Below, one piece after another: positions 1,484-64,000 of a stretch of DNA of 64,000 nucleotides. This DNA is from Bacteroidales bacterium CF. GTDB lineage: Bacteria; Bacteroidota; Bacteroidia; Bacteroidales; UBA932. A program made the position numbers and the translations under genes. How positions within the stretch are numbered: the first letter of the stretch is position 1; each line of letters starts with the position of its first letter. Location: NCBI GenBank assembly GCA_000473305.1, contig CP006772.1, positions 1,860,001-1,924,000 on the forward strand. The letters run 5' to 3'. The notes below the pieces were generated by a model that saw nothing but the letters and a program-made list of their open reading frames with translations, made no database searches and was not told the DNA's origin.

Positions 1484-2875
1484 TTAAATCTGACATGAAT
1501 TATTTATAAGTATATAATTCCAGAACTTGGATATATACTTTATTGTCATATATTCACTAACGCTTTGCTCTATCATTCTTCTCAATGAGTTAATCTGAAC
1601 ATCCAGACTATAGATCTCCGGAAGATTTATAAAAGAATTCATCTCTTCTGCTTTTATCACTAATAAGAGATCAAGCAACTCCCCTCTTGACTGATGGCTC
1701 TCCAATAAATGAATAAAAGCAGCCATATTACATTCGAAGAGCGACGCTTCTCTGTCTCTCCTCAACTTTTTATATGTTGGATTCTCCCTTTCAAGCCTTG
1801 AGAAACACTCATCTCTTCGTTTTGCAAAATCTTCCTTACTAATTTTGTTAAGTCTGGAATCATTTAAAATCTTTTGATATGGATTATCCTTCTCCAGAAA
1901 GGCTTGTAAATTCTTTTCGTCCTCTTTGAATTTTTTATGTTTTGTTCTCAACTCTTCAGATTGTTGGAAAAATGAGTCAAGTATAGTCTCATTATAACTA
2001 TAAACAGGGATTATTATAGAGTCCTCTCTTCTATTTGAAATAAATTTATTTGCTATAATCTCGTTTTTTCGAAGCAAAGTTTGTGCTAGCTGGCCTTTCA
2101 AAAGCTCAATTTTATTTTTTAACTCAACCTCCCTATTATAATTCTCAACAAGTGGATTTGAAGGCATTTCCCTTACGTAATGTTTTAATGCGTGTCGTCT
2201 GATTGATTGATCATAATAGATGCCGGAAAGAAAATTTATCTGGTCTTTTAGACTTTCTATCTCATGTTTTGTCACAAATCCATCTACCGTTTCATCAAAC
2301 ATCCTTATATAATTTATCGGTATTATTGATGTGTACGGAATAAGCTGATTCCTTTCTCTTGAGTATTCCAATATATACTTAAGAAGTTCAACATAAAAAC
2401 GGCGTCCTGCGACTGTACTCTTTTCCTTTAGAGATTTATAATAGGGAGATGTTATAAGTAACTTTCTATTTATCTCATATCCTTTTTCTCTTATGATTTT
2501 TTTTGTTTCCTCATCTTTTGCGGACATATTCATTAAAGCCTTATAAGAATCCTGGCTTGTAAGAAAAGCATTCGCCGCTCTCAAACGGTTGTCACTAACT
2601 CTCTTTAACTCCGGCAGTTTTGGGGAAGTGTTAATAAAAGCATCTGTAAGATATCGTCTTAAACCATCCTGATAGACTACGGTAGAGTCCCTGATGCATT
2701 TTTCCAGATATTTTTCAAATATTTTATAACTTCTTGATTTTTCGCTATTTACCAAATCCTGATTAGCATGGTCAAGGGCAGCCTTGATAATTGCTGAACT
2801 ATCCACTACTTGTGCCTTTACCGGGCTCATTGCAAACATTACAAACAGAGAGAAAATAACAATACTTTTTTTCAT
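1484..2875 (-). CDS. Secreted, highly charged alpha-helical protein of unknown function
   Basis: I do not recognise this 463-residue protein. Residues 1-21 form a clear signal peptide ending VKAQ, so it is exported, probably to the periplasm. The rest is rich in Lys, Glu, Arg and Leu with few Gly or Pro. That points to a helical, partly coiled-coil protein, with stretches such as KNKIELLKGQLAQTLLRKNE. There is no lipobox or further membrane segment. The DNA is more AT-rich than the flanking housekeeping genes, as in the neighbouring AbiE region, which suggests accessory DNA. Upstream lies the perfect 24-bp inverted repeat at 2959-3069. A TATATTTG box on the minus strand at 2898-2905 is a candidate promoter element. 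Confidence 0.55.
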   Translation of the reverse strand: MKKSIVIFSLFVMFAMSPVKAQVVDSSAIIKAALDHANQDLVNSEKSRSYKIFEKYLEKCIRDSTVVYQDGLRRYLTDAFINTSPKLPELKRVSDNRLRAANAFLTSQDSYKALMNMSAKDEETKKIIREKGYEINRKLLITSPYYKSLKEKSTVAGRRFYVELLKYILEYSRERNQLIPYTSIIPINYIRMFDETVDGFVTKHEIESLKDQINFLSGIYYDQSIRRHALKHYVREMPSNPLVENYNREVELKNKIELLKGQLAQTLLRKNEIIANKFISNRREDSIIIPVYSYNETILDSFFQQSEELRTKHKKFKEDEKNLQAFLEKDNPYQKILNDSRLNKISKEDFAKRRDECFSRLERENPTYKKLRRDREASLFECNMAAFIHLLESHQSRGELLDLLLVIKAEEMNSFINLPEIYSLDVQINSLRRMIEQSVSEYMTIKYISKFWNYILINNSCQI

Positions 2876-30928: not shown

Positions 30929-32356
30929 TCAGAGATTTTTCTCCAGAGTGTTAAGCTGCCTCAAGGCAACTTTCGGGTTAGCAAGTACTACACAGCCGTT
31001 TACACAACCACCCTCACACATCATAACCTCAACAAGGTTAGAGTCTGATTTACCGGTTGTAGTCTTTGCTTTGAGAATTTTTATAGTATCCCTGTTTATT
31101 CCGTTTATAACCTCTGTCTTTAATCCTGCAGGATTTCCAAGATACTTTACCACTGATGAGGCGACACCCCCGCTTTTGGCATACATTCTGCCGCTTGTAT
31201 CGATAGTCGAATCAGGCACATATCCTGTTGAATCCTCAACTATAATACCCTTTGCCCTCATCATGGCATCTACCTCCTCAAAGGTCATGACATAATCAAT
31301 ATTGTGATCTTCTACGCCCTCTACTCTTTTAGCCACACATGGACTGACAAAGACAGTTATCGCGTTGGGATCCTCCTCCTTCACCAATTTTGCCGTATAT
31401 GATGCCGGTGTCGCTGTGTGTGATATATAAGGAACCAGCTCAGGCATATATTTTTCAGCCCAGAGTTTGTATGATGGGCAACAAGAGGTTGTCATGAAGG
31501 GCTCACCATTTTCCTCCACTCTCTCTTTCCACTCCTGAGCCTCATTGCTGGTAGTCATATTTGCCCCCTTCGCAACCTCTACAACCTCATCAAAACCGCA
31601 AGCCTTGACTGCAGAGAGGATTTTCGGCAATGTTGTCTGATACTGTCCGGCAAATGCAGGGGCTACCATTGCAACAACTCTCTTTCCCGAATCCATAATA
31701 TCTCTTATAATCTGTACTATTGTCGTCTTGCTCATTATTGCCCCGTATGAACATATATCCTTACATTTTCCGCAGGCAATACACTTATCTGGGTCAATAT
31801 GTTCTATCCCGTAATAATCTTTTGATATTGCCTTTACAGGACAAGCCTCTTCACATGGTACTGGTGTATATACTATTGCATGATAGGGGCACGCTTGCAT
31901 ACATCTTCCGCAACTTACACATACATCCTGGTCAATGTGTGCCTTTTTTCTGACAGATATAGCGCTCTTGTTACAGGCATAAGTACAAGGGTGACCTACA
32001 CAACCACGACATAAATTAGTTACGGTGTAATTATACTTCAGGCATGAACTGCATGCCTCGTCGACAACGGTAAGCATGACATCCTCCCTGTCCTGTGGCA
32101 TCTTTGCAAGTTGAGCATACTCCTTCAATGTTGTAAGCTCGTCGAGCTCCTCGTCCGGTTTAAAACCAAGAATAGTCATAAGCCTATGCCTTATTACCGC
32201 TCTGTCTTTATGAATACAACACCTGCTGAAATGCTCTCCTTTAGGTCTCATCTCAAGAGGTATCCTGTCTACACCCTCCAGCAGACGCCCCTCAAAACAC
32301 AGTTTACTAACTCTCTCTAATAGTTCTCTCTTAATTTCAGTAGCTTGATTGTACAT
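30929..32356 (-). CDS. [FeFe] hydrogenase, monomeric (group B-like)
   Basis: A 475-residue protein. The N-terminal part holds several Fe-S motifs: CSSCLKY, CRGCVGHPCTYAC, CVSCGRCMQACP, CEEACPVKAI and CIACGKCKDIC. The catalytic H-domain has the three loops TTSCCPSYKLW, SPCVAKRVE and MMCEGGCVNG, with all four H-cluster Cys. Length and loop sequences fit group B [FeFe] hydrogenases, known from anaerobes but little characterised. It may use ferredoxin to produce or consume H2. The maturases HydE, HydF and HydG are not in the window. A consensus promoter (32379-32410) lies just upstream. Confidence 0.88.
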   Translation of the reverse strand: MYNQATEIKRELLERVSKLCFEGRLLEGVDRIPLEMRPKGEHFSRCCIHKDRAVIRHRLMTILGFKPDEELDELTTLKEYAQLAKMPQDREDVMLTVVDEACSSCLKYNYTVTNLCRGCVGHPCTYACNKSAISVRKKAHIDQDVCVSCGRCMQACPYHAIVYTPVPCEEACPVKAISKDYYGIEHIDPDKCIACGKCKDICSYGAIMSKTTIVQIIRDIMDSGKRVVAMVAPAFAGQYQTTLPKILSAVKACGFDEVVEVAKGANMTTSNEAQEWKERVEENGEPFMTTSCCPSYKLWAEKYMPELVPYISHTATPASYTAKLVKEEDPNAITVFVSPCVAKRVEGVEDHNIDYVMTFEEVDAMMRAKGIIVEDSTGYVPDSTIDTSGRMYAKSGGVASSVVKYLGNPAGLKTEVINGINRDTIKILKAKTTTGKSDSNLVEVMMCEGGCVNGCVVLANPKVALRQLNTLEKNL

Positions 32357-32378: not shown

Positions 32379-32410
32379 CAAAAGTAGACATAGAAGAATT
32401 AAAGCACAAA
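32379..32410 (-). promoter_or_regulatory. Consensus Bacteroidota promoter for the group B-like hydrogenase
   Basis: On the minus strand TTTG (32407-32410), 20 bp spacing, then TACTTTTG (32379-32386). This is the full -33/-7 pattern of the primary sigma factor in Bacteroides. It lies 22 bp before the hydrogenase start and is back-to-back with the metX leader promoter. Confidence 0.85.
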
Positions 32411-32414
32411 AAAA

Positions 32415-32445
32415 TTTGTCATTTATTGAACAATTCATACTTTTG
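32415..32445 (+). promoter_or_regulatory. Consensus Bacteroidota promoter of the metX-thrA leader
   Basis: TTTG (32415-32418), 19 bp spacing, then TACTTTTG (32438-32445). Transcription should start near 32450, giving a leader of about 230 nt before metX. The -33 elements of the two divergent promoters are only 4 bp apart. Confidence 0.87.
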
Positions 32446-32465
32446 CAAATCGGACAGATAACATG

Positions 32466-32665
32466 TACAGAGCATCTAACATATCAAACAGCTATTCGGG
32501 GGTCTCTTCAGACACCCTCTCTGTATTAATGTCATCTATGATAATGCGAATGCATCGCCAGATGCTAGGTTAATTTCCGGATCTTACGCAGGTCCATTGG
32601 GTGTAAGCCCAAAAATCCAATCAATCATACAACATTTAATCTAAGGAAGCATTATTGCATTTCCT
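32466..32665 (+). promoter_or_regulatory. Candidate methionine attenuator/leader RNA of metX-thrA
   Basis: The leader shows several exclusive pairings. TACAGAG (32466-32472) pairs with CTCTGTA (32519-32525) and encloses a hairpin (32499-32517, loop CTTC). AGCATCT (32471-32477) can instead pair with AGATGCT (32560-32566), which lies inside the leader ORF. Downstream, GGAT-CTTAC (32579-32587) can pair with GTAAG (32603-32607) and ATCC (32615-32618), competing with TTGGGT/GCCCAA (32597-32612). AGGAA (32644-32648) and TTCCT (32661-32665) form a hairpin just before the metX start. No U-tract follows, so control may be translational or Rho-dependent. I saw no match to SAM-I or SAM-II riboswitches. 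The interval 32357-32679 holds no other gene. Confidence 0.55.
32529..32573 (+). CDS. Methionine-rich leader peptide
   Basis: A 14-codon ORF in the metX leader encodes MSSMIMRMHRQMLG and then TAA. Five of 14 residues are Met (codons at 32529, 32538, 32544, 32550 and 32562). It begins about 80 nt after the predicted transcription start and ends 107 nt before metX. Its second half covers a sequence that pairs with the 5' leader. A run of codons for the end-product amino acid before its biosynthetic genes is the classic sign of ribosome-mediated attenuation. Translation is not proven; the ORF is too short for statistical certainty. Confidence 0.6.
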   Translation: MSSMIMRMHRQMLG

Positions 32666-32679
32666 GTGCATGAACAATC

Positions 32680-33699
32680 ATGAACAGACATTACTATAGG
32701 TCAGAATCTCCGTTTGAACTTGAAAGCGGAGAGAGTTTAAAACAGATAGAGATCTGCTATCACACAACAGACAACATCAGCCGGGGCAGAGAGGTAATCT
32801 GGATCTGCCACGCATTAACAGCTAATTCCAACCCGGAAGAGTGGTGGCCTGATTTAGTCGGGAAAGGCAAGCTTTTCGACACAGATAAATACACCATAAT
32901 ATGCGCCAACATGCTTGGGTCATGCTACGGTAGCACCGGCCCTACATCTTGTGACGAATCCGGCAGGCAATACCTGCTCGCATTTCCGGAAATAACAGTA
33001 AGGGATATCGTCCGGTCTCAGAATTTACTCCGGGAATATCTTGGGATAGAAAAGATTGACCTCATAGTTGGTGGTTCAATCGGAGGATTCCAGGCTATCG
33101 AGTGGAGTATCATGTATCCGGAGATAATCCGGCATATGGTGCTTTTAGCTTGTAACGCACAAGTATCTCCTTGGGGAACAGCCTTCAACGAGTCTCAGAG
33201 AATGGCACTCTTTTCAGACAGCTCCTTTGAGAAACAGGAGAGTCAGGAGGGAGGGGCAAAAGGGCTTGAAGCTGCCCGTTCAATTGCATTGCTCTCATAT
33301 CGCTCGTTCCGGGGTTACGGAATTACACAGAGTGAGTGTGACGAAAATAAAATTTTTGCAGAGAGGGCATGCAGCTACCAAAGGTATCAGGGGAAAAAAC
33401 TCCGGGACAGATTTGATGCATACTCATACTACTATCTGACAAAATCCATTGACAGCCACAACTCCGGCAGAGGTCGCGGAGGAGTTACAGCAGCTTTGTC
33501 AACTGTATCAGCTAAAACCCTGATTATAGGAATTGACAGTGATGTGCTTTTTCCCGTTGAGGAACAAGAATTCCTCGCAGAAAGTATAAGAGAAGGGGTG
33601 CTTGAGGTTATCCGGTCGGATTTTGGCCATGACGGCTTTTTGCTTGAGTGGCAATCAATTGAAAATAGAATAAAAAAACATATAAAATTTCTGAATTAA
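32680..33699 (+). CDS. metX: Homoserine O-acetyltransferase
   Basis: A 339-residue alpha/beta hydrolase that acetylates homoserine for methionine synthesis. The nucleophile is Ser133 in VGGSIGGFQA (MetX family, usually GGSMGGMQ). The Asp of the triad is in IGIDSDVLFP (286-288) and the His is His317 in FGHDGF. The oxyanion/substrate motif is LGSCYGSTGPTS. It may use acetyl- or succinyl-CoA; the sequence alone does not settle this. It lies 1 bp before thrA and behind a Met-rich leader, so the two genes likely form a Met-controlled operon. Confidence 0.94.
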   Translation: MNRHYYRSESPFELESGESLKQIEICYHTTDNISRGREVIWICHALTANSNPEEWWPDLVGKGKLFDTDKYTIICANMLGSCYGSTGPTSCDESGRQYLLAFPEITVRDIVRSQNLLREYLGIEKIDLIVGGSIGGFQAIEWSIMYPEIIRHMVLLACNAQVSPWGTAFNESQRMALFSDSSFEKQESQEGGAKGLEAARSIALLSYRSFRGYGITQSECDENKIFAERACSYQRYQGKKLRDRFDAYSYYYLTKSIDSHNSGRGRGGVTAALSTVSAKTLIIGIDSDVLFPVEEQEFLAESIREGVLEVIRSDFGHDGFLLEWQSIENRIKKHIKFLN

Positions 33700-33700
33700 T

Positions 33701-36130
33701 ATGCAGGTATTGAAATTCGGAGGTAGTTCGGTTGCAGACGCGGCCAATATTTCCAACGTAGTAAAAATTGTAAGGGAGAGTGTCAAAAAGGACCGTACCA
33801 TTTTGGTTGCATCAGCAATAGGTGGATGTACAGATAAACTGATTGAGATAGGAAAGCTTGCAGCAATGCAGGATGAGTCATATAACGAATTGATTGATAA
33901 GCTGGAAGAGAGACATCAAAAAATAATATGGGAACTGCTTCCCATAGATTATCAGCATGCTCTCTCCTCAAAAACAAAGAATACATTCAACCAGTTGAGG
34001 GAGATATGCAAAGGTGTATTCTATCTTAAAGAGCTGAGCAATTCATCTCTTGACCTTATCATGAGTTTCGGGGAGGTTCTGTCTACAAGGATTATCAGTG
34101 AACGTTTCTCATCAATGGGTATAAACAACTTCTGGGCAGATGCCCGGGAGATAATAAAGACCGAACCGGGCAGCTCCGGCAATGTTGTCATAAAGCAGAT
34201 CAGCTACTCTAATATTAAAAAAACACTCAGCTCAAACCGGCAACGTCTTATTATTGTTCCCGGCTTCATCGCGAGTGATATTTTAAAAAGGACGACAACA
34301 CTCGGCCGGGGAGGGTCCGACTATACCGCAGCATTGTTGGCAGAAGCAACAGATGCAAGGGAACTGCAGATATGGAGTGACGTGAACGGAATGATGACTG
34401 CAGATCCCAGAATTGTACCTGAAGCGATTACCATCCGGCATATTTCATACAAAGAGGCACAGGAACTATCTCATTTCGGGGCCAAGGTAATTTATCCTCC
34501 CACCATTCAACCGGCTGTAAGCAAAGGTATTCCCATCGTTGTCAAGAACACTTTTGATCCGGAGGATCCGGGAACCGTTATAGAGAACAACCCGCCTGAA
34601 AGCCGCGGTAAAATCAGAGGCATATCAAGAAGTAACAAAATTGCACTTCTCTCTATGGAGGGGAGCGGTATGGTGGGAGTTCCCGGTTATTCTGCAAGAC
34701 TATTCAGTGCTCTGGCAAATGCCGGAGTAAACATTGTGCTGATAACACAGGCCTCATCTGTCCACACAATGTGTGTCGCTATAGAGGATAGTGATGCTGA
34801 AAAGGCAAAAAAAGCTGCTGACGGCGTATTTGCCTATGAGATAAGCCTGAATAGAGTCAATCCCCTTAAAGTTGAGAGAGGATTTTCAATCATATCACTT
34901 GTGGGAGATGATTTGAAAAACCAATCAGGGACAGGAGGAAAGATGTTCAATGCAATTGGCCGTTCCGGAATTAATATAAGAGCAATAGCCCAGGGGTCAT
35001 CAGAAAAAAATATCTCGGTTGTTGTAAAGGAGGAGGATTCTGACCTGTCAATCAAAGTTATACACGAAGAATTCTTCGGAGAGGAGAAGAAAAAACTCAA
35101 TTTATTCATAGCCGGATACGGGCAGGTGGCAAAAGCGCTTTTATCGATAATTGATTCCCGCCGCGATTGGCTATTTAGTAAAAAAGGGTTGGAAATATCC
35201 ATTGTTGCCATTTGCAACAGCAAAAAGATGATTTCAGACAAAAGGGGCATTCAGATAAAGCAGATTAAATCTTTGCTCCCGCTTGGAGAACCCTCTGATA
35301 TAAACAGATTTCGCGAGATATGTTGTGATATGAGCCTCCCGGAAAGTCTCTTTGTAGACTGTACGGCTGACAGGTCCGTCACATCACTCTACCAGGAGTT
35401 TCTGCAATCCGGCTGCAAAGTTGTAACCTGCAACAAAATAGGTCTCAGCTCCTCTCAGGAAAGTTATGATGCTCTTCAGGAGATCTGCATCAATACAGGA
35501 ATTCAGTTAAGATACGAGACAACTGTCGGGGCTGCACTGCCTGTTATTTCAACCATAAGAGGGAGAAGAGAGTGCGGAGACAACATACAAAGAGTTGAGG
35601 CAATCCTGTCCGGGACTCTTAATTATCTTTTCAGCAAATACGACGGATCTGTAAGATTCACAGACCTTGTAGAGCAGGCAAGGAGGGCCGGCTATACAGA
35701 GCCTGATCCCAGGATTGATCTGGCCGGGACAGACACTATGAGGAAGGCTCTGATTCTTGCAAGGGAATCTGGATTCAGGCTGGAACCGGATGAGATTGAA
35801 ATCAGGCCATTTCTTAATGAAGCCTTATTCTCTGCGGATATAGATATTTTCTATGCTAAACTCAGAGACTATGAAGAGAAGATTGCAGCAAGATTCAGAG
35901 AGTCGGAGGCAAAAGGTGAAAGGTTGAGGTTTATTGCAAAAATTGACAAGGAGGGGTGCAGTATCGGCCTGGAATCCATAGGTTCTTCTCACCCATTTTA
36001 TAACATTTGCGGCAGAGATAACTCTGTTATGATTTACAGCGATGAGTACACCTCACCGCTAATAGTGACAGGTGCGGGTGCCGGAGCATCTCTTACCGCC
36101 TCTGGTATTTTTTCCGACCTCTTGGCGTGA
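33701..36130 (+). CDS. thrA: Bifunctional aspartokinase/homoserine dehydrogenase
   Basis: An 809-residue fusion of the first and third steps of the aspartate pathway. The N-terminal aspartokinase starts [17 protein letters not shown] and has the catalytic region [20 protein letters not shown] regulatory domains follow (about 310-455, with [17 protein letters not shown] and [14 protein letters not shown]). The homoserine dehydrogenase starts near 465 ([16 protein letters not shown]) and contains VTCNKIG and the catalytic [12 protein letters not shown]...[15 protein letters not shown]. It supplies homoserine directly to MetX, encoded 1 bp upstream. Pairing with metX rather than thrB/thrC suggests a methionine-dedicated isoform. 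Confidence 0.96.
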
Positions 36131-62671: not shown

Positions 62672-64000
62672 TTATCCTATTAATTTTTTCAATAGAGCAA
62701 TAACCTCTCCGGCAACAAGAACCAGAGATGTCGAGAGGATTATCACAATCCAGTCGTGAAAGCTGATAGGCTCTGTCCTGAAAACCTCTCCTCCGAACTG
62801 AACTATCAAGATCTGCCCGACTACAATCAGAAGTCCTACCAGTACAAATCCCTTGCTTTTTGAAATCTCCCTGAAGGCAGAGCCTGAAGAACCGTATCTC
62901 TTTGCATTGAACATGTTCCAGAACTGCAGCATAACAAATATGGTAAAGAAGCGGGAGAGGTCGTATCTTGAAATTTCACCGGCCTCATTGGTAAAGTAAT
63001 CCATCAGACCGAGCATCAGTATCACAAATACCACACCTGTCACGATGATATTGTAAGCCATCTTGCGGGTAATAATAAAATCACCCGATTTTCTCGGCTC
63101 TCTTTTCATCACCCTTTCATCAGGAGGCAGAGATGCTAGTGCCCCGGCAGCAAAAGTATCCATTATAAGGTTAACCCAAAGCATTTGAGTGACGGTCAAC
63201 GGAAGCTCCTTTCCTATCAGAGAGCCCAGAAAGACTATCAGAAGGGCAGCAAGGTTTATAGTTAACTGGAAAAGTATAAATCTCTGTATGTTCTGGTAAA
63301 GCGAACGGCCCCACATTACTGCCGTCGCTATGCTGTTGAACGAGTCATCCAGGAGTGTGATGTCGCTGGCCTCTTTTGCCACAGATGTACCTGTCCCCAT
63401 AGAAAGCCCGACATGGGCATGATTGAGGGCAGGTGCATCATTTGTACCATCTCCTGTCACTGCCACAACCGCACCCTTTTGCTGCAGAAGTTGGACAAGA
63501 CGTTGTTTGTCCGTAGGCCGCGCACGGCACATTATCTTAAGTCCCAGAACCCTCTCCAACGCCTCGGCATCACTTAGTGCCTCAAAATCGACACCTGTTA
63601 TGACACATTCCGGACCATCCTTATCTGTAAGAATCCCTATCTGACGGCCAATCTCCTTTGCCGTTCCCGGTGTATCTCCGGTAACAATCTTCACATCTAT
63701 CCCTGCACTGAGACATCTTGCAACAGCATCCGGAACATCTTTCCTGACAGGGTCAGATATGGCGACAATCCCTATATAATTAAGCCCTTTCTCAGCCAGG
63801 ACCTCTATCCTCTCCTTGCTATCCACAGAGACCTCTGCATATGCGAATCCAAGGGTCCTCATAGCCTGGTTCTGATATTTCAACAACAGTTCATTCAAGC
63901 CATCCGGTACCGATTTGCATTTAGAGATAATAATCTCCGGAGCCCCCTTTACAAAAAGAATCCTTTTACCTGAAATTTCCGAATCGGCAATTGTGGCCAT
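62672..64000 (-). CDS. Calcium-transporting P-type ATPase, C-terminal part (partial)
   Basis: The gene is cut by the window end, so its N-terminus (actuator domain and the DKTGT phosphorylation site) lies outside. The visible 442 residues include the N-domain end (RILFVKGAPEII), the P-domain motifs VKIVTGDTPGTAKEIGRQIG and VAVTGDGTNDAPALNHAHVGLSMG, and the last transmembrane helices with MLWVNLIMDTFAAGALASLPPDERVM (Asn and Asp for Ca2+ binding). It ends with a Cation-ATPase C-terminal domain. It is a second Ca2+ pump of the window, close to eukaryotic PMCA-type. It is 4 bp before the TlpA-like gene. Confidence 0.9.
   Translation of the reverse strand: MATIADSEISGKRILFVKGAPEIIISKCKSVPDGLNELLLKYQNQAMRTLGFAYAEVSVDSKERIEVLAEKGLNYIGIVAISDPVRKDVPDAVARCLSAGIDVKIVTGDTPGTAKEIGRQIGILTDKDGPECVITGVDFEALSDAEALERVLGLKIMCRARPTDKQRLVQLLQQKGAVVAVTGDGTNDAPALNHAHVGLSMGTGTSVAKEASDITLLDDSFNSIATAVMWGRSLYQNIQRFILFQLTINLAALLIVFLGSLIGKELPLTVTQMLWVNLIMDTFAAGALASLPPDERVMKREPRKSGDFIITRKMAYNIIVTGVVFVILMLGLMDYFTNEAGEISRYDLSRFFTIFVMLQFWNMFNAKRYGSSGSAFREISKSKGFVLVGLLIVVGQILIVQFGGEVFRTEPISFHDWIVIILSTSLVLVAGEVIALLKKLIG

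Follow-up and report, generated by a model that had tools for sequence, protein, structure and literature searches.

The window, i.e. the whole 64-kb stretch of DNA analysed here, comes from a genome represented by a single contig of 2.66 Mb and carries on its forward strand an operon whose first gene (32680-33699) we take to be metX, encoding homoserine O-acetyltransferase. The second gene (33701-36130) is presumably a thrA-like gene for a fused aspartokinase/homoserine dehydrogenase. The operon is preceded by a promoter of the Bacteroidota type, with TTTG (32415-32418), 19 nt and TACTTTTG (32438-32445), as had been pointed out in an earlier annotation made from the letters alone (hereafter the sequence-only reading); the leader length of about 230 nt given there is correct provided that transcription begins near 32450, the start deduced here. 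The intergenic region with this promoter is shared by a divergent gene on the minus strand (30929-32356), which features ferredoxin-like clusters and a putatively hydrogenase-like sequence. An out-of-frame ORF, MNNHEQTLL (32670-32699), begins 10 nt upstream of metX and extends over its start, and a similar frame, MNTHEQTLL, is read from the alignment at the metX start of the nearest named relative (locus L031, MetX 88% identical).

The leader contains a short ORF with an unusual content of methionine codons. The segment 32529-32573 reads MSSMIMRMHRQMLG and has ATG codons at 32529, 32538, 32544, 32550 and 32562, exactly the five that had been claimed for it. Five or more ATG within 14 codons turned up in 2 of 5000 dinucleotide shuffles of the leader, and a scan of both strands of the window gave a single further stretch of this kind, at 63450 on the minus strand. 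The 14-codon ORF of the sequence-only reading was right in its Met run but probably not in its start, the frame being open up to a further ATG at 32463, which lies 17 nt downstream of the -7 box and gives an ORF of 36 codons (32463-32573) with Met codons at 32463 and at the five positions above. Since the frame is open upstream and the leader peptides of relatives begin at the matching place (ATGAACAGAGAG..., MNREN...), the leader peptide is most likely MYRASNISNSYSGVSSDTLSVLMSSMIMRMHRQMLG, of 36 amino acids.

In L031 the Met stretch and the next 60 bases are nearly letter-identical to those of the window, and the sequence upstream has diverged more. A DNA search of 149 genomes of the family, 12 of them from the window's genus, recovered the leader in each of these 12 (its own included), and a pattern search in 22 of 25; 20 of these 22 genus leaders precede metY, not metX. 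The operon in the window lacks a metY gene. Pattern search and alignment define a family-wide core, ATGCGAATGCATCGCCAGATGC (32544-32565 in the window). The search pattern, ATGCGNATGCANC...GNTGC, which partly fixes the core letters of the loci that it matches, matched at 89 places, spread over 80 of the 299 family genomes searched; a reversed control pattern matched at 7. Seventy-three of these places were taken as leaders, and all 73 sit 82-418 nt before metY or metX. Fifteen others, first set aside by eye, turned out to fall within unrelated reading frames 122-540 codons long, and the DNA fetched around them contained neither a metX nor a metY match; the remaining one, a second copy of G071 cut by a contig end, was left uncounted. 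The leader of the window is one of 73 cases of a family-specific leader (core ATGCGNATGCA with its hairpin, upstream of metY or metX). Among 110 loci reached through MetX, which include same-genome duplicates and loci with too short a flank, a looser core was found at most 450 nt from metY or metX in 47, KRMHR variants among them. Fourteen variant loci chosen by hand from these 47 were added to the 73, giving 87 loci; one of these was not usable, and removal of redundancy left 50 representatives of the other 86.

The leader is not universal in the family. Among the loci listed, a promoter lying close to metX, with no leader, is seen in many Cryptobacteroides-like genomes, and because many relatives' metX loci show none, part of the family has, judging from these sequences, either lost the leader or never acquired it. 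In the metX loci without the core that are listed among L075-L110, the metX start is preceded by a promoter-like box at a distance of a few tens of bases. In the window's own genome, which has two metY relatives (33% and 40% identical), the core was not found in the sequence read upstream of either. Across the order, the strict core pattern matched 2 of 393 genomes, both from the window's genus, with just 6 of the 393 belonging to the family. A covariance model of 41 core positions was also run on 198 genomes of the order and abandoned: as 188 of the 198 matched at E <=0.5, its E-values were unusable, and its 11 best matches outside the family (L248-L258) are loci without a metX or metY match, the best of them (L248) preceding an rpsL-like gene.

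Within the family the reading frame is maintained. A TAnnTTTG box lies 5' of the core in 86 of the 87 leaders, and in 80 of these 86 the first ATG after the box is in frame with the core and the frame is unbroken; the one locus without the box stands outside this count. Two features typical of leader-peptide attenuation are therefore present at the level of sequence, namely a translatable short ORF conserved in frame, in 80 of 86 loci, and enrichment in codons for the pathway product, in the window leader (5 ATG in 14 codons). Counted from the first ATG, the leader peptides have 7 to 49 residues but share a similar end, as in MKKSSFISMMSMRMHR, MNNSVNISVFIKPMRMHR and MENSFFISMMSKRMHR, and some have just two or three Met codons (MKEKRHIVDMRMHL).

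The peptide end MRMHR falls on a near-invariant RNA hairpin, GCAUC-loop-GAUGC (32552-32556 paired with 32561-32565), which the sequence-only reading had missed, together with the pairing of the Met segment with the metX start region described below. In the core alignment, which comprises 51 of the 87 loci, 255 of 255 cells are paired, a count fixed in part by the search pattern; the single two-sided change is GCAAC/GUUGC in G049, and two cells are altered on one side. The leader stop codon lies, by eye, within the loop of this hairpin in 38 of the 51 sequences, and the window's genus reads on. In L018, L062, L064 and L082 the stop is moved past the core (MSKRMHRQDA) and the hairpin is retained.

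Further structure is predicted on either side of the core. The minimum free energy (MFE) fold contains a 5' stem (32465-32472 with 32519-32526) capped by a hairpin (32498-32505 with 32510-32518), and the window leader as a whole folds at -65.7 kcal/mol (z -4.14), with none of 200 shuffles as low. Downstream of the core, hairpin H3 (32579-32584 with 32590-32595) covaries among the genus leaders: three of its six pairs show at least one two-sided change in an alignment of 18 of the 22 genus leaders, near-duplicates being omitted. For core and H3 together, 10 cells are changed on both sides, a number reached in none of 500 shuffles, and three pairs show a both-side change, a number equalled in 49 of 500. 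H4 (32597-32612), UUGGGU...GCCCAA in the MFE fold, varies by eye from UUGGG/CCCAA to UCGGG/CCCGA in G133 and G601. The hairpin that had been placed at the metX start appears in the MFE model just upstream of it (32645-32651 with 32656-32663), and its sequence is identical in G611. The alternative helices named in the sequence-only reading are mostly not conserved. The 7-bp pairing of 32471-32477 with 32560-32566 is absent at that place in L031, where a shifted 5-bp match is possible, and the alternative 32583-32589 with 32601-32607 is, by eye, complete in the window alone among the 18 genus leaders, G611 having one mismatch. The absence of a U-tract noted there agrees with our search of 32380-32800 in the window, in which no terminator-like site was found.

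The Met-codon segment has a second predicted partner in the start of the gene that it precedes. In the MFE fold analysis of the window, 32533-32547 has a mean pairing probability of 0.74 per nt; the putative anti-start strand 32534-32546 pairs with 32689-32701, i.e. metX codons 4-8, and 32649-32657 is an alternative partner of 32539-32547. From the alignment, L031 could form 11 successive pairs, one of them G-U, between its Met segment and metX codons 4-8. In members of the window's genus AUGAUGAUG is opposite AUCAUCAUC, next to the start of metY, and the two strands change in step in G010, ATGGTTATG with CATAACCA (TGGTTATG/CATAACCA), and in G089, ATGATAAT with ATTATCAT (TGATGATAAT/ATTATCATCA); in G133 leader and start match over 15 bp. 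As MAFFT did not align the start regions, this long-range covariation was judged by permutation rather than by column counts, with pairing windows set after inspection of the sequences and with permutations that ignore shared ancestry. Duplex energies computed over the whole region, with long internal loops allowed, gave a weak signal (mean z -0.90) and were set aside for single-helix and permutation tests. Among the 50 representatives of the 86 loci, the best single helix between a leader and its own start averages -6.78, against -4.71 for permuted pairs, a difference reached in 0 of 20,000 permutations (metX loci alone 32, metY loci alone 15 of 20,000). A repeat of this test again gave 0 of 20,000, with -4.70 for permuted pairs and -4.31 for shuffled starts, and the controls gave 910 of 20,000 for an upstream segment of the ORF and 3973 and 2922 of 20,000 for coding segments. 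The start region used at first (-35 to +10) left out the main partner in the window, metX codons 4-8, which the full fold revealed; with a wider start region the result was 0 of 20,000 (3794 for the control), and for the window's leader its own start came first among the 50. In 16 of the 50 representatives the best helix is weaker than -4 kcal/mol (e.g. G048, G049, G591, G646 and the g21 metY group). In most representatives the Met-codon segment is, by these sequence comparisons, complementary to the start region of its own gene, and on average it is more so than to the starts of other species.

We propose that the leader RNA (32450-32700) serves as a methionine-responsive, ribosome-mediated attenuator, most likely acting on the initiation of metX translation. 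Such a built-in methionine gauge appears probable, if with ample room for doubt, because a conserved, Met-rich tiny gene is joined here to an RNA that can fold onto the start of the first gene. When charged Met-tRNA is ample, the ribosome would traverse the leader ORF and depart, upon which the Met segment would pair with the metX start region (in the window, codons 4-8); core hairpin, H3 and H4 would be enclosed in a loop, and translation of metX-thrA would be low. When Met-tRNA is scarce, the ribosome would stall at the AUG codons, covering the Met segment along with the 5' strand of the core hairpin and so leaving the metX start open.

In folding models with a ribosome placed on the leader, stalling opens the start region modestly on average and, in the window, by little or in the opposite direction, which leaves the mechanism plausible rather than established. 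Mean openness of the start region over the 50 representatives is 0.50 for the free RNA and 0.55 with a ribosome before the CGA codon (P = 0.0002 versus free), with a gain above 0.1 in 12 of 50; with a ribosome at the Met after CGA it is 0.54, with such a gain in 10 of 50. A control ribosome placed upstream gives 0.53 (P = 0.007 versus free; gain above 0.1 in 8 of 50), and the stalled positions do not differ clearly from it (P = 0.095 and 0.35), the controls in short ORFs overlapping the pairing segment. For the window itself openness is 0.30 in the free RNA, rises to 0.36 with the ribosome before CGA and drops to 0.26 with it at the last core Met, so that the local hairpins at the start would need opening too.

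The sequence-only reading had suggested attenuation by a Met-keyed leader peptide, which is partly supported and is the interpretation that the data favour most: the ORF is conserved in frame, dense in Met and situated before metY or metX, the named helices being what mostly failed to be conserved. Its guess that the switch may be translational fits the complementarity to the start region and the terminator search. It had also stated beforehand what would speak against it, on the sequence side homologous leaders lacking a Met-rich ORF and any conserved alternative pairing. By that standard the outcome is mostly favourable. Homologous leaders were found to keep a Met-containing ORF, several with pairing changed on both sides; on the other side, many relatives are leaderless and 16 of 50 representatives pair weakly.

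The family core (CGAATGCATCG) is more invariant than the counting of codons would need, and this, like the leaders with just two or three Met codons, speaks against our proposal. In a different mechanism the peptide ending in RMHR and a stop would, on sensing methionine or SAM, arrest the ribosome that makes it, so that Met would matter as a residue and not as a codon. TnaC, whose peptide stalls its own ribosome in response to tryptophan, offers a model. The series CGA ATG CAT CGN is near-invariant across the family despite very different N-terminal parts, and the KRMHR variants drop one Met codon and retain RMHR, as peptide arrest would predict. The residue changes MRMQR, MRMHL and MRMHQ, however, are accompanied by changes that preserve or extend the hairpin, which points to RNA rather than peptide; moreover, the window's genus reads through the core with no stop there, and leaders elsewhere have Met in common and not RMHR. 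Nascent-peptide arrest is on this evidence an unlikely basis for the leader. Arginine, of which MRMHR has two, was also considered as the amino acid sensed and was rejected, as leaders in other families share Met and not Arg.

Attenuation of transcription, in which the stalled ribosome would alter formation of a terminator, intrinsic or Rho-linked, differs from our proposal in its read-out. Several genera have U-rich stretches after the core hairpin, and the Met-rich leaders outside the family, described below, are without the start pairing, so that their read-out may be of this type. For the leader of the window we nonetheless think it improbable, given the result for 32380-32800 and a pairing partner that is the start region of the gene.

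Overlap of the small ORF with a binding site for a metabolite or protein would account for a strongly conserved hairpin with an invariant flank and for the covariation of H3. Conservation of the frame in 80 of 86 loci is unexpected for a pure RNA element, however, and the Rfam comparisons point the same way. In the 64-kb window only two tRNAs reach their gathering score, and no riboswitch, T-box or other leader family, including the Bacteroid-trp motif, was matched; for the leader itself, matches up to E 10 are three unrelated ones (a transposon-linked sRNA and two microRNAs) at 13.6-13.9 bits against gathering scores of 65-94, and the leaders of 14 relatives gave none up to E 0.5. We therefore regard such a site as very unlikely. 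Least credible of all is that the ORF merely raises or lowers basal initiation at metX, through reinitiation or as an AUG decoy, without sensing methionine: short leader ORFs near a gene have been proposed to raise initiation (PMC4833913), but the stop-to-start distance in the window is 106 nt, far from the peak of 11-14 bp that the same study gives for Bacteroidetes, and the leader is Met-dense and attached to met operons.

No account of a Met leader in Bacteroidota was found in the open-licence PMC literature within the terms searched. The usual routes of methionine sensing run through SAM (riboswitches, MetJ) or T-boxes, and ribosome-mediated attenuation is known for the trp, his and leu leaders. 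In ermC-type translational attenuation the position of the ribosome on a leader ORF decides whether a downstream start is masked. The window leader would follow the same ribosome-position logic, although homology is not expected and erm leaders respond to an antibiotic and not to charged tRNA. The Corynebacterium ilvB uORF has an article devoted to it (PMC10272879) and is also described in PMC11109978. In common with trp, his, leu and ilvB attenuation, the leader studied here has a short ORF rich in codons for the product, placed before a biosynthetic operon, and predicted alternative RNA pairing; unlike them, its amino acid is methionine, a terminator was not found in 32380-32800, and the codon run is complementary to the gene start. 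The metL leader before metNIQ of Streptomyces lividans, as described in PMC8079986, resembles it in encoding a peptide with several Met codons (MSTTSDRTPATEATTTPGARCMCRRMCAF) and in lacking a typical terminator, on a leaderless transcript. It differs in its phylum, in the operon, which encodes a transporter, and in being a single annotated instance. For the fthC uORF of Streptococcus, the authors suggest sensing of methionine supply via the initiator tRNA (PMC11109978); methionine sensing is thus shared as a proposal, and the fthC case differs in being initiation-based, in its terminator hairpin, and in gene and phylum. Closer in lineage, clues that leader peptides attenuate amino-acid operons have been noted for Flavobacterium psychrophilum (PMC9723704), and sORFs that bring leader peptides to mind have been described in B. 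thetaiotaomicron (PMC7366714).

The kind of attenuation proposed is already known, and what would be new is the amino acid, methionine, the lineage, and a codon run that doubles as the anti-start strand. If true, a codon-counting methionine sensor in Bacteroidales would be a new solution, and since the amino acid sensed is also the initiator, it raises the question of how stalling at internal AUG codons is separated from failing initiation. The leader class provides a ready set for reporter tests.

Met-rich leaders are also apparent in other families of the order. Sixty-seven regions before metY were compared, these being the best 70 of 104 listed places minus G022 (same family) and G158 and G234 (near contig ends). 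MxM among the last 12 codons of a short ORF was found in 17 of the 67; 60 shuffle sets averaged 2.6 and never exceeded 5, and the reverse strand of the same regions gave 2. At least four Met in 12 codons were found in 6 of 67, against 0.09 expected in shuffles. Examples are MKSIHLADKNFIMPLMPMCMRR, MHMLPMSMPRPKLR, ...FWMQDMLMLLG and ...FYMRMQ, and ATGCGAATG is kept in four leaders (G171, G205, G275, G297). Most of the 17 ORFs do not begin shortly after a -7 box, only those of G169 and G297 lying within 30 nt of one, and three are tiny (MQMV, MTMYI and MKMP) and may arise by chance. Pairing of the Met segment with the start was absent in 16 hand-picked loci outside the family (14,955 of 20,000 permutations). 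It is tempting to speculate, and we do so tentatively, that there is an order-wide Bacteroidales class of Met leader peptides for metY-metX-thrA operons, evolutionarily interchangeable with SAM riboswitches, and that in the window's family the AUG run has become the antisense strand masking the start, so that codon run and start would coevolve. The SAM-I riboswitch (RF00162), which senses its metabolite directly and was not found in the window, occupies the same position before the same gene, metX, in 2 of 18 other-family loci scanned (L269 and L273). In L273 (G244) the RF00162 match (2734-2839, minus strand) stands in tandem with a Met leader, MPLMPMCMR, ahead of a single metX, an arrangement that would suit the sensing of both SAM and Met-tRNA.
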